From: Paraprevotella xylaniphila YIT 11841
GTDB lineage: Bacteria > Bacteroidota > Bacteroidia > Bacteroidales > Bacteroidaceae
Reading direction: 5' to 3'
DNA length: 64,000 nucleotides
NCBI RefSeq assembly: GCF_000205165.1
Contig: NZ_GL883841.1
Span: forward strand, 1-64,000
Position numbers and translations under genes: made by a program. A model generated the notes under the pieces. That model worked only from the letters and a program-made list of their open reading frames with translations, ran no database searches and was not told the origin of the DNA. Shown here piece by piece: positions 19,669 to 35,494 of the stretch; the first letter of the stretch is position 1, and each line of letters begins with the position of its first letter.

Positions 19669-19749
19669 TTCATCTACTTTTAATGATTTCTGAAAAAGCA
19701 AGTACAAAGAAGCACCACAAACGGCAATATGGAAAAATAATGGAAATCC

Positions 19750-19822
19750 AATCCCTACGGCAGTACGAACTGCATCAGGTTCGAGGGTATAATCTCAGCC
19801 CCTGTCCGGGCACCCCTTTGTC
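19750..19822 (-). promoter_or_regulatory. TPP (thiamine pyrophosphate) riboswitch
   Basis: On the minus strand the RNA reads GGGGTGCCCGG, then GGGGCTGAGATTATACCC, then GAACCTGATGCAGTTCGTAC, then TGCCGTAGGGA. CTGAGA and ACCTGATC-type blocks are the universally conserved THI-box pyrimidine and pyrophosphate sensors. It lies about 80 bases before the thiS ATG, so it should switch off the operon when thiamine pyrophosphate is plentiful. No obvious terminator hairpin separates it from thiS, suggesting control of translation. Confidence 0.95.
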
Positions 19823-19832
19823 TTTACTCGGA

Positions 19833-32789: not shown

Positions 32790-34450
32790 ACGCCTTTCGC
32801 TCCTCTACGTCAACCTATTCCACCCTACGTTTGCTCCAATGGCTGTGGAATATCCTGCGACACCACCGACTGCAAACGGGACTGAACACCCTGCTCGGCT
32901 GTTCCACCGTATTGTTGGATTTCATGTTCATCGCTGCCACCAAATGGACCATCGACATCGCGACCTATAAAGCCCCCGGAAGTTTATCCATAGCCGCCGC
33001 ACTACTCATCGGTATCCTGTTGTCACAGCTCTGCATCCATTTCGCTTCACGTTGGGTCAAGGCCATTTTGGGAGTCAAGGCACAAAACCACATGCAACGG
33101 TTCTATTTCGACCGTTTGCTCCACAGCGAGTGGAAAGACCGGAACCGACGCCACAGCGGTGACCTCCTGAACAGGCTGGAGCGAGATGTCACCGACGTGG
33201 TGAATGCCGTCACCGAAACGGCTCCTTCCATTATCGCCGTGTGCATACGGTTGGCAGGCGCGTTCTTATTCCTGTATTCCATGGATGCTTCATTGGCTTG
33301 TCTCACTGTGGCCATCATTCCGCTCTTCATGGTATTGAGCAAAGTATATATGAAACGTATGCGCAAACTGACCCGCGAAATCAGGAATACGGACAGCCGT
33401 ATCCAAAGCATACTGCAAGAAACGATACAGCACCAGATGGTTGTACAGACTTTGGAACAACAGCCCGTTATGGTACAACGGTTGGACAACATACAACAGG
33501 ATTTACGTGGCCAAATCAAGACGCGCACCCACTTTTCGTCCATCTCCTCGTCTTTCCTCAGTGCCGGATTCATGGGGTGTTACCTCGTAGCCTTTCTTTG
33601 GGGAGCCGCCCGGCTGCACGAAGGGACGATCACCTACGGCATGATGATAGCCTTTATCCAACTTGTAGGACAAATACAAGGACCGTTCCGGGACATGACC
33701 CGTTTCATTCCTGTTTTCGTCAACGCTTTTACAGCCGGCGAACGCCTCATGCAATTGGAAGAAATCCCCTTGGAAAAGTATCCCGAAGGAACCCGGATGG
33801 GTTCGCCCTCCGGCATACGCTTCCATCAGGTCTCATACGCATACGACAAGGGAGGCCGCCACGTGCTGCAAGATTTCACCTACGATTTCCCGCCAGGCAG
33901 CCATACGGCCGTGATAGGGGAAACCGGTGCAGGGAAAACGACTTTAATACGCCTGATGCTTTCCTTAATCCACCCCACTGCGGGAAAAATCATATTATAC
34001 GACAACCATGGCAGGCAATCCGAATGCAACGCAGGTACCCGCTCCTGCTTCACATACGTCCCACAGGGAAACACCCTCTTTAGCGGTACCATACGGGAAA
34101 ACCTGTTGCTCGGCAACCCGCACGCCACAGATGAAGAGATGCAAGCCGCACTTGCCCACGCCTGCGCCGATTTCGTATTCCAACTACCCGAAGGCCTGGA
34201 CAGCCGTTGCGGCGAACAAGGCACGGGATTAAGCGAAGGACAGTCGCAACGTGTTGCCATCGCCCGCGCTTTACTGCGTCCGGGCGGTATATTACTATTC
34301 GACGAAGCCACTTCCTCACTCGACACCGCAACCGAGAAACGGCTATGGCAAAATATCTGTAGCCATTATGGCGATAAGACCTTGATTTTTGTCACTCACC
34401 GGATGAACATCATTACATCAGAAACACGCGTATTGAAACTCTGCAAATAA
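32783..34450 (+). CDS. ABC exporter with fused membrane and ATPase domains
   Basis: A 555-residue half-transporter: six membrane helices in residues 1-310, then a nucleotide-binding domain. The latter has Walker A GETGAGKTTLIR (about residue 380), Q-loop TYVPQGNTLFSGTI, signature LSEGQSQRVAIARALL (about 484), Walker B GILLFDEATSSLD and switch His VTHRMN. The layout is that of MsbA/multidrug or lipid exporters, which act as dimers; the substrate is unknown. The start at ATG 32783 overlaps the nadK end by 7 bases. No second half-transporter gene is adjacent, so it is probably a homodimer. Confidence 0.92.
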   Translation: MLNAFRSSTSTYSTLRLLQWLWNILRHHRLQTGLNTLLGCSTVLLDFMFIAATKWTIDIATYKAPGSLSIAAALLIGILLSQLCIHFASRWVKAILGVKAQNHMQRFYFDRLLHSEWKDRNRRHSGDLLNRLERDVTDVVNAVTETAPSIIAVCIRLAGAFLFLYSMDASLACLTVAIIPLFMVLSKVYMKRMRKLTREIRNTDSRIQSILQETIQHQMVVQTLEQQPVMVQRLDNIQQDLRGQIKTRTHFSSISSSFLSAGFMGCYLVAFLWGAARLHEGTITYGMMIAFIQLVGQIQGPFRDMTRFIPVFVNAFTAGERLMQLEEIPLEKYPEGTRMGSPSGIRFHQVSYAYDKGGRHVLQDFTYDFPPGSHTAVIGETGAGKTTLIRLMLSLIHPTAGKIILYDNHGRQSECNAGTRSCFTYVPQGNTLFSGTIRENLLLGNPHATDEEMQAALAHACADFVFQLPEGLDSRCGEQGTGLSEGQSQRVAIARALLRPGGILLFDEATSSLDTATEKRLWQNICSHYGDKTLIFVTHRMNIITSETRVLKLCK

Positions 34451-34461
34451 AAAGGAAAAAC

Positions 34462-34493
34462 TTTGGCCAACCCACGCAAAAACACTATCTTTG
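34462..34493 (+). promoter_or_regulatory. Canonical Bacteroidota promoter for the cobalamin-riboswitch transcript
   Basis: TTTG at 34462-34465 and TATCTTTG at 34486-34493 are separated by 20 bases, the textbook -33/-7 arrangement of Bacteroidota. The riboswitch aptamer starts about 5 bases later. Confidence 0.75.
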
Positions 34494-34497
34494 CCCC

Positions 34498-34715
34498 GAA
34501 ACAGGTGTCCTGTCTGCCGATCGGCATTCCGGATGAAAAGGGAATCGGGTGGAAATCCCGGACAGTCCCGCTGCTGTAAATTCCAGAAAGCGTATCAAAA
34601 GGAAGACTCATACCACTGCCTCAAATCCATCACGGGGTCGGGAAGGTTTTTGATACGGGAATAAGTCAGAAAACCTGCCTGTTCAAACTGCGGCATCTCG
34701 CTTCGAGGGTTAGGC
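34498..34715 (+). promoter_or_regulatory. Cobalamin (vitamin B12) riboswitch
   Basis: Conserved B12-element blocks appear in order: GGTGTCCTGTCTGCCGATC, GGAATCGGGTGGAAATCC, GGACAGTCCCGCTGCTGTAA, ACCACTGCC, GTCGGGAAGG and AAGTCAGAAAACCTGCC. The closing helix pairs GAAACAGG (34498-34505) with CCTGTTC (34678-34684). A P13-like hairpin CTCGCTTCGAG follows at about 34698-34708, where the kissing loop would block ribosome entry. All core elements look intact, so it should still bind B12. No B12 transport or synthesis gene follows (see findings). Confidence 0.95.
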
Positions 34716-34793
34716 GATGATTCCACTCAGATTCTAAGAACCGTCTTTTCTATCACAAGGATCGGCTTATTTCGTCCGCAACATAACGGACGA

Positions 34794-34937
34794 ATGTGGC
34801 ACCTTTCAGAACATGACGCTTGGAAGATGCCTGTCACACGACAACGTTTATTTAACCCCCTCCAAAGGCCGAAGCGATTCGCCCTTGCGTCTGCCATGCT
34901 ATCTGCTATCAATCCATTTTACCAGACGCAGAAATAA
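34794..34937 (+). pseudogene. Short ORF after the riboswitch, possible remnant of a B12 TonB-receptor gene
   Basis: From ATG 34794 there are 47 codons (36 from ATG 34827). The end, RPKRFALASAMLSAINPFYQ then TQK and stop, looks like a positively charged start, hydrophobic core and cleavage region of a signal peptide, as in outer-membrane TonB receptors. The frame is open back to about 34701 without another ATG. Nothing of a receptor follows; a terminator hairpin begins 43 bases after the stop. It may be the decapitated start of btuB-like DNA or a genuine tiny secreted peptide. The assignment is inference. Confidence 0.35.
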
Positions 34938-34979
34938 ACGGAAACGATGGAGACAGACAGAAGAATTCACATTCAAAAA

Positions 34980-35016
34980 AATGACGTCCAGAAGAAAATC
35001 TCTTCAGGACGTCATT
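34980..35016 (+). terminator. Terminator of the cobalamin-riboswitch transcript
   Basis: AATGACGTCC-A-GAAGA (34980-34995) pairs with TCTTC-A-GGACGTCATT (35001-35016): 15 base pairs, one A-A mismatch and a 5-base loop. It is followed by TGATTTTAT and preceded by an A tract, so it could also work on the other strand. Confidence 0.8.
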
Positions 35017-35351
35017 GATTTTATCTACCGGACATTCTTAAAAACAAGAATAAAATAATGATACAATGAAAATTTAGGGATTTTACTACTTTATTCTCTT
35101 GCAAAAAATTAACTTTGCATACTATAGGAATACAATGTTCAAAAAAGGAGGTGAAGAAACAGACAGTAAAATGAATGAGACGCAAAAAAAGGACAGCATG
35201 CTCGACAAGGCTGCATTTCATTAATCCGAGTAAGAATCTACCGCGTTGGAATACGCGGCATATTAACAAACCGAGAAAGCGTTCCATTCCATAACTTGAA
35301 ATGAACATATAAAATATTGAGCTTTTAGCTCTTGTTCTTCTTTTGTCGAAT
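35017..35351. other. Gene-poor interval before the LRR leader RNA
   Basis: About 330 bases. A -7 element is at 35110-35117. A possible 29-codon ORF (35135-35224, starting MFKKGGEETDSK) contains an AGGAGGTG but has no recognisable family. A small CCGCGT/ACGCGG hairpin lies near 35240. A long minus-strand open frame here has no family features and is not credited. Confidence 0.4.
35110..35117 (+). promoter_or_regulatory. -7 promoter element for the LRR leader transcript
   Basis: TAACTTTG matches TAnnTTTG. A transcript from here would have a leader of roughly 390 bases before the LRR start codon, including the structured RNA at 35352-35494. The -33 region is weak. Confidence 0.4.
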
Positions 35352-35494
35352 ACCGCCAAACATTCACTGCATAAGAACAAGCAGACTGGGAGTTCACGCC
35401 AATAAGGCGTGAGCTATTCTGTTGCTTGTATGCAGAAGGTCACTTGGCGGTAACCCAACAAAAGGCAATCTAAAGAATGGTTGCACGCCTTTTT
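35352..35494 (+). ncRNA. Structured leader RNA followed by terminator-like hairpin
   Basis: Four nested helices form one rod of about 100 bases: ACCGCCAA/TTGGCGGT (35352-35359 with 35444-35451), CTGCATA/TATGCAG (35367-35373 with 35429-35435), CAAGCA/TGCTTG (35378-35383 with 35423-35428) and TCACGCC/GGCGTGA (35394-35400 with 35406-35412), closed by an AATAA loop. Nine bases later AAAAGGC (35460-35466) pairs with GCCTTTT (35487-35493) and ends in a T run, like an intrinsic terminator. The LRR ATG is 19 bases beyond. It could be a cis-regulatory attenuator or a free small RNA. I do not recognise a named RNA family. Confidence 0.55.

Follow-up and report, generated by a model that had tools for sequence, protein, structure and literature searches.

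A stretch of the Paraprevotella xylaniphila YIT 11841 genome led by a cobalamin riboswitch is, in our view, the gene of a small regulatory RNA that would block the translation of mutA when B12 is low, a reading to which we give a probability of about 78%. The stretch lies in the first 64,000 nucleotides of contig NZ_GL883841.1 (hereafter the window). Some members of the genus Paraprevotella keep its promoter, aptamer, P13 hairpin, 3' module (GNRA hairpin and loop) and terminator together as a conserved non-coding unit, and the loop is complementary to the mutA start of its own genome. A differently built second version, also complementary to the mutA start, occurs in Bacteroides and Phocaeicola.

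A conserved non-coding unit behind a cobalamin riboswitch

The features of the unit, in window positions, are the following.

34462–34493, + strand: Bacteroidota-type promoter TTTG-N20-TATCTTTG (pattern match)
34486–34696, + strand: cobalamin riboswitch aptamer (RF00174, 89.9 bits, full model 1–189)
34665–34679, + strand: B12 box GTCAGAAAACCTGCC, in which an A replaces the G of nearly all other riboswitches seen
34697–34719, + strand: P13, the kissing-loop hairpin of the riboswitch itself, conserved in its loop (similar hairpins lie 3' of the B12 box in other riboswitches, by eye)
34867–34884, + strand: GNRA hairpin GGCCGAAGCGATTCGCCC, identical in seven of eight copies, with a GCGA to GTGA loop change in L012
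34885–34893, + strand: 5' arm of the stem presenting the pairing loop (shuffle test)
34898–34914, + strand: pairing loop GCUAUCUGCUAUCAAUC, which is complementary to the 5' leader and start codon of mutA
34923–34931, + strand: 3' arm of the stem presenting the pairing loop (shuffle test)
34980–35016, + strand: intrinsic terminator stem-loop followed by TGATTTTAT (−21.3 kcal/mol); a strong stem of other sequence stands at the same place in relatives

Upstream, an ABC transporter gene ends at 34450. The promoter is composed of TTTG (34462–34465), 20 nucleotides and TATCTTTG (34486–34493), and a TA-n-CTTTG box was present in all eight Paraprevotella copies of the unit. By its full-length covariance score, which far exceeds the RF00174 gathering score (89.9 against 31.5 bits, E 6.6e-21), the stretch 34486–34696 is a cobalamin riboswitch with predicted B12 binding. 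The terminator, a stem-loop with a T-rich tail, was missing from the list produced by a simple terminator scan; together with the promoter it bounds a transcript of about 520 bases. The next gene on the + strand, an ORF from 35477, some 460 bases past the terminator, encodes a BspA-type LRR protein. All of this bears out the original prediction of a TTTG-N20 promoter, an intact-looking B12 aptamer and a strong terminator closing a transcript of about 520 bases, with no B12 gene in it or just after it.

The three remaining cobalamin riboswitches of the source genome scored 99.4, 101.1 and 106.1 bits and precede, by eye, carboxylase-like (biotin-dependent subunit), nrdD-like (anaerobic ribonucleotide reductase) and TonB-receptor-like frames, which leaves the aptamer at 34486–34696 as the only gene-less one among the four. 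The A in its B12 box is found in all eight copies of the unit; elsewhere in the fetched loci, G stands at 86 of 87 distinct sites and T at the remaining one (L370). This could possibly reflect an altered ligand preference, which is speculation. The element CGCTTCGAGGGTTAGGCG was at one point considered as a part of the sRNA and was rejected, as it is the riboswitch's own P13, with similar hairpins 3' of other aptamers (by eye). Elsewhere in the window, a TPP riboswitch (RF00059, 64.2 bits) was observed at 19735–19827 on the minus strand, and the leader of the BspA-type gene (35239–35415) contains several inverted repeats, on both strands.

Four ORFs of at least 50 amino acids overlap the stretch, two over the promoter and aptamer and two after the aptamer. 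The Pfam scan covered three ORFs, both of those 3' of the aptamer and a further one just beyond the stretch, and gave no match at E ≤ 0.01. An 81-amino-acid ORF does overlap the 3' part, as would suit a cis-acting leader for a small ORF or for the downstream gene, but we hold such a role to be highly improbable. The ORF is without a Pfam match and runs through the terminator, with a length of 81 amino acids in the source genome (G000) and 148 in G001. Moreover, the next long frame is not the same among the carriers, being BspA-like on the + strand in G000, on the opposite strand in L007, L008 and L012, and different again in L009 and L011, with the comparison limited by the contig end in L006 and L010. 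As the spacing between the conserved elements often shifts by non-multiples of three among the copies, the conserved islands are better read as RNA than as protein.

The unit was found in 8 of 18 Paraprevotella genomes. A covariance model built from these eight copies (R1) recovered all of them at E ≤ 5.5e-18 and hit no other genome of the genus, and every carrier has RF00174 above its cut-off (72.3 to 106.5 bits). Between the source genome and P. clara (G001), the closest pair, identity amounts to 92.5% in the promoter, 97.1% in the aptamer, 100% in P13, 96.5% in the middle part and 98.6% in the 3' module, and it drops to 74%, with gaps, from the terminator onward. The neutral yardstick for the same pair, 225 fourfold-degenerate sites of the neighbouring ABC gene, is 86.7% identical. 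Since the values from the aptamer to the position before the terminator (96.5–100%) exceed this yardstick, the residual sequence is constrained and not conserved by chance. In the more distant copies, short islands persist (P13, GGCCGAAGCGATTCGCCC and CTATCTGCTATCAAT), followed by a strong stem of differing sequence. Conservation of the 3' part, which the original prediction had proposed to look for in relatives, is thus seen in 8 of 18 genomes and includes two nearly invariant elements. A riboswitch leading into a conserved non-coding RNA that has a terminator of its own and contains no gene is the layout of a B12-riboswitch-controlled regulatory RNA.

The original prediction also allowed for a decayed B12-uptake locus, in which a deletion would have left the riboswitch and terminator of a former operon as a scar. 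Such an origin would suit the only gene-less riboswitch of the source genome, and one carrier, G013 (L011, L022), has the unit away from the ABC gene, with a divergent cobalamin riboswitch about 1.2 kb from it that heads a TonB-receptor-like frame. We can give it hardly any credence, however, because the unit sits 3' of the same ABC gene in the other seven of the eight carriers and its 3' module is constrained. The scar was to be recognized by a relative with an intact TonB receptor at this position and an unconstrained residue; the flanks examined show no receptor 3' of the aptamer, and the residue is constrained. A decayed receptor within the stretch was likewise rejected, with no Pfam match in the three ORFs scanned.

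Outside the genus, R1 gave 19 weak matches, of which 5 lie beside a cobalamin riboswitch; the 14 that do not were taken as chance. L013, L015 and L368 were considered as diverged copies of the unit and rejected, as they lead to nrdD-like frames. In the plasmid collection, no full-length copy of the window's unit was found, and one B. finegoldii record was similar to a Bacteroides copy over 86%. In L020 (G006), a cobalamin riboswitch is followed by several hundred bases without an obvious gene and may represent another gene-less riboswitch.

Beyond P13, the GNRA hairpin (34867–34884) and the loop GCUAUCUGCUAUCAAUC (34898–34914) are nearly invariant and the sequence around them diverges. Within the loop, CTATCTGCTAT and CAAT are invariant in all eight copies, with one base inserted between them in G005. 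The stem presenting the loop scored above shuffled sequences at p < 0.05 in four of seven independent sequences, reached 0.06 and 0.09 in two and failed in L010; its score summed over the sequences, 143.5, was not reached by any of 2000 shuffles (maximum 131). When arms were exchanged between genomes, the score was often just as good, so that covariation lends the stem weak support. No Rfam family covers the GNRA hairpin or the loop, nor was there any other + strand match at E ≤ 10. The GNRA pattern GGYCGAAGYGATTCGYCC occurs at 19 sites in 18 of 399 genomes of the family, a sample and not the full set, as against none for the reversed control. Eighteen of these sites are downstream of RF00174, eight in Paraprevotella and ten in two other genera. 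The exception (L076, G000:C5:39226), in the source genome, has the GNRA motif without a riboswitch and looks like a terminator behind an unrelated gene.

Complementarity of the Paraprevotella loop to the mutA start

Candidate targets were fixed before any duplex was computed and comprised four B12-related gene starts. PF02310 in the source genome identified metH (TIGR02082), a mutB-like gene and a B12-binding radical-SAM-like gene, the latter two by eye; mutA, annotated as the methylmalonyl-CoA mutase small subunit (TIGR00642), was added as the partner of mutB. Among the four starts, mutA fits the loop best. The duplex of GCUAUCUGCUAU with AUGGCAGAUAGU, which includes the start codon, has 12 bp (10 Watson–Crick and 2 G-U) at −16.2 kcal/mol. 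The loop core CUAUCUGCUAU pairs with the mutA start AUGGCAGAUAG over 11 bp in all eight carriers, and the mutA leader of each of the eight holds GATTGATA, the complement of UAUCAAUC. Target prediction for the 3' part, another check proposed at the outset, therefore points to the mutA start. A conserved seed complementary to the translation start of its putative target places the RNA among candidate base-pairing, trans-acting sRNAs; in the genomes that could be placed, mutA is on another contig or far from the RNA.

The mean energy of the loop–mutA duplex was −19.5 in seven carriers compared with −13.6 in eight genomes of the same genus without the unit, in a table that omits G005, G019 and G210, for which no proper mutA start had been read (G005 was read later). 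Three non-carriers (G009, G011 and G016) nonetheless keep the site at the mutA start codon. Two other genomes of the genus without a mutA match, G010 and G017, are also without the unit, although these are two cases only. In each of three genomes with the Paraprevotella (A-type) loop and three with the Bacteroides and Phocaeicola (B-type) hairpin, none of 1000 shuffled leaders reached the observed energy.

When the genome's own ORF starts were ranked by duplex, mutA came third of 137, and the first was an mmdA-like carboxyltransferase gene of the same pathway. This background, which succeeded an earlier table of 55 starts, consists of ATG ORFs of at least 200 amino acids, spurious ones included; it is biased against the mutA claim, since it includes the loci fetched for their seed matches (L080–L109). 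The mmdA-like leader (L232, about 30 bases upstream of 11395, + strand) contains GTAGCAGATAGT, which is complementary to the loop over 12 bp. The site is kept in two of the four carriers read, being strong in G000 and G001 and absent in G012 and G013; the mmdA of the other four carriers lies outside the fetched stretches. As a second target metH was rejected; with 16 of 18 metH starts read, the six remaining carriers do not preserve the site present in G000 and G001. A genome-wide seed scan of the source genome gave little excess, with 67 sites against 56 for the control, and of 30 seed sites inspected as loci, one (L081) is a short way downstream of a plausible start.

A differently built version in Bacteroides and Phocaeicola

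The second version was reached through a covariance model of the module and the pattern GGYCGAAGYGATTCGYCC. It occurs in Bacteroides (G247) and Phocaeicola (G073, G107), and also in a Mediterranea record (L177). Its layout consists of the riboswitch, a spacer of mostly 104–114 nt, the hairpin AUAAACU-CUGCCA-AGUUUAU and a terminator that usually contains the GNRA core. A wider scan of contigs with the pattern gave at least 118 stretches, many of them from Pseudomonas. Among 18 of those listed that were scanned for RF00174, it was present in 10 of 10 Bacteroidaceae, 0 of 4 other Bacteroidota and 0 of 4 Pseudomonas; six of the ten Bacteroidaceae stretches are the same contigs as genomes already in the sample. 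The exact hairpin was found in 56 of 119 Bacteroides genomes, again a sample and not the full set, and at up to two mismatches in 67, against 13 for the reversed control.

RF00174 lies directly upstream in 25 of 27 loci with the exact hairpin, and about 1.06 kb upstream in the other two, L297 and L307, where a frame of 325 or 324 amino acids stands between the riboswitch and the hairpin. The L297 protein matched 1ypx at 1.1e-36 and the NCBIfam models PRK06520 and PRK06233 below their cut-offs, relatives of the B12-independent methionine synthase. In these two loci, a riboswitch-led mRNA that encodes a B12-independent methionine-synthase-like protein (the L307 protein by eye) carries the hairpin and terminator at its 3' end. 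Judged by coordinates, G184 and G197 have the same gap between riboswitch and hairpin. Four loci (L043, L044, L046 and L065) have a pair of cobalamin riboswitches on the same strand with about 1.1 kb between them, of which the first belongs to the sRNA and the second lies further on.

Over the mutA start, the sequence AUAAACU-a-UGGCAGA forms 7 + 7 bp, around one bulged base, with the 3' half of the hairpin (UCUGCCA-AGUUUAU). For ATAAACTNTGGCAGA, exactly one exact match was found in each of ten out of ten carriers, and it was always the mutA start (in G019 by coordinates); by arithmetic, about 0.03 exact matches per genome are expected by chance. Sites with one mismatch were not in excess in the ten carriers, with 30 sites at up to one mismatch, of which ten are the exact mutA matches, against 18 for the control.

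One might argue that the mutA complementarity is a by-product of conserved N-terminal codons (MADS) and that the RNA has other targets. Indeed, ATGGCAGA is common in the mutA of relatives without the unit, and the scores of the Paraprevotella loop on B-type mutA leaders, −13.0 to −19.7, are partly due to the conservation of the MADS codons. We nevertheless consider this explanation unlikely. The B-type match also includes the seven untranslated bases directly upstream of the ATG and is the sole exact match in each of the ten genomes, the A-type match includes the leader element GATTGATA in all eight carriers, and the mmdA-like gene that ranks first among the genome's own starts belongs to the same pathway.

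The original prediction had envisaged a riboswitch-controlled regulatory RNA similar to rli55 of Listeria or to EutX of Enterococcus, which we take to be the counterpart of Rli55. The present results support such an RNA and correct its likely mechanism to pairing with the mutA start in place of protein sequestration. Capture of a regulatory protein, as of EutV by Rli55, would be consistent with the layout of riboswitch and RNA, which is the same as in Rli55, and with the nearly invariant GNRA hairpin common to both lineages. We regard it as quite improbable, however, given that two lineages match mutA with loops of different sequence and that a Bacteroides copy, L298, has lost the GNRA core and kept the pairing hairpin. 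By the latter copy, the hairpin is the more constrained part.

Proposed mechanism and relation to known systems

The pairing and the conservation were computed, and it is the expression of the RNA, the direction of its action and the off-switch that we infer. When B12 is scarce, the full RNA would accumulate, and its loop would pair with the mutA start codon and block the binding of the 30S subunit. Methylmalonyl-CoA mutase would fall, and with it the formation of propionate. Binding of B12 to the aptamer would shorten, destabilise or refold the RNA, allowing mutA to be translated. The terminator scan found no terminator between the aptamer and the module. In all eight Paraprevotella copies, the 5' strand of P13 can pair 7/7, counting wobbles, with the 5' part of the GNRA hairpin. 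A possible switch would be that CGAAGCG of this hairpin and P13 itself compete for that strand. The usual logic of cobalamin riboswitches is OFF, and from this the proposed sign, mutA off without B12, is derived. As the sequence does not reveal the direction, the RNA might instead activate mutA or stabilise its mRNA. This seems very unlikely to us, because the pairing covers the start codon and an activator produced when B12 is short would run counter to the rise of mutAB with B12 that is described for the related Xylanibacter ruminicola in PMC11575231.

Taking both versions together, we find it fairly probable that a common B12-sparing circuit exists in gut Bacteroidaceae, in which trans-acting RNAs released by cobalamin riboswitches shut off the B12-dependent methylmalonyl-CoA mutase through at least two designs of the pairing module, and in which the module of some Bacteroides is the 3' end of an mRNA for a B12-independent methionine-synthase-like enzyme. 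If so, one Bacteroides transcript would both make a substitute enzyme and silence a B12 user, and the circuit would help to set the succinate-to-propionate balance of the human gut. Gut microbes need B12 for the conversion of succinate to propionate, according to the available text of PMC10881866.

The target of AspocR in Listeria, pocR, is the adjacent gene on the opposite strand; unlike it, the mutA of the present RNA is distant in the genomes placed. In the accessible part of PMC8079631, AspocR is a B12-switched antisense RNA that limits a B12-dependent pathway, as is proposed here for our RNA. The same text describes Rli55 as a B12-riboswitch ncRNA that is full-length without B12 and keeps a B12-dependent pathway off; the present unit resembles it in that a B12 riboswitch drives a non-coding RNA, to the same proposed end. 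Rli55 uses ANTAR elements to bind EutV, and early termination of its transcription is brought about by its riboswitch (PMC8079631, same part). In the present unit, by contrast, which belongs to Bacteroidota, the conserved part is complementary to the start codon of an mRNA, and the search for an early terminator gave none. GibS of Bacteroides thetaiotaomicron is, like the RNA proposed here, a trans-encoded Bacteroidota sRNA with a conserved single-stranded seed, but no riboswitch is tied to it in the available parts of PMC7366714.

In X. ruminicola, mutA and mutB were the only genes of the propionate pathway raised by B12 in both transcriptome and proteome (log2 1.3–1.7), as stated in the available sections of a 2024 report (PMC11575231). 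There, its authors call the mechanism unknown and the mutAB effect minor, and favour post-translational control; they hold that riboswitches play no direct part, the genes having none nearby, and mention an antisense RNA of the Listeria kind as uninvestigated. A riboswitch-released sRNA acting at a distance would be the kind of mechanism that those sections leave open for the B12-raised mutase. In its available parts, a 2024 B. thetaiotaomicron atlas appears to drop sRNA candidates overlapping riboswitches (PMC10994844), and such filtering could be why RNAs of this type were missed. No description of the present RNA, or of an sRNA on mutA in Bacteroidota, was found in the titles and abstract openings of the open-licence literature. 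B12-switched regulatory RNAs as such are known from the Listeria work cited, in the parts available; what we propose as new is a B12-switched RNA, outside the phylum of Listeria, that would act through its complementarity to the start codon of an mRNA.

Cobalamin riboswitches were also observed closer to mutA in some genomes. In G048 (C2:1041297) and G184 (C1:1903801) they are on the opposite strand, about 1.2 and 2.9 kb from the mutA start, and in G073 (C2:115378) one is on the same strand, about 4.2 kb upstream of it. Such riboswitches, 1–4 kb from mutA, could be another route of action on this gene.
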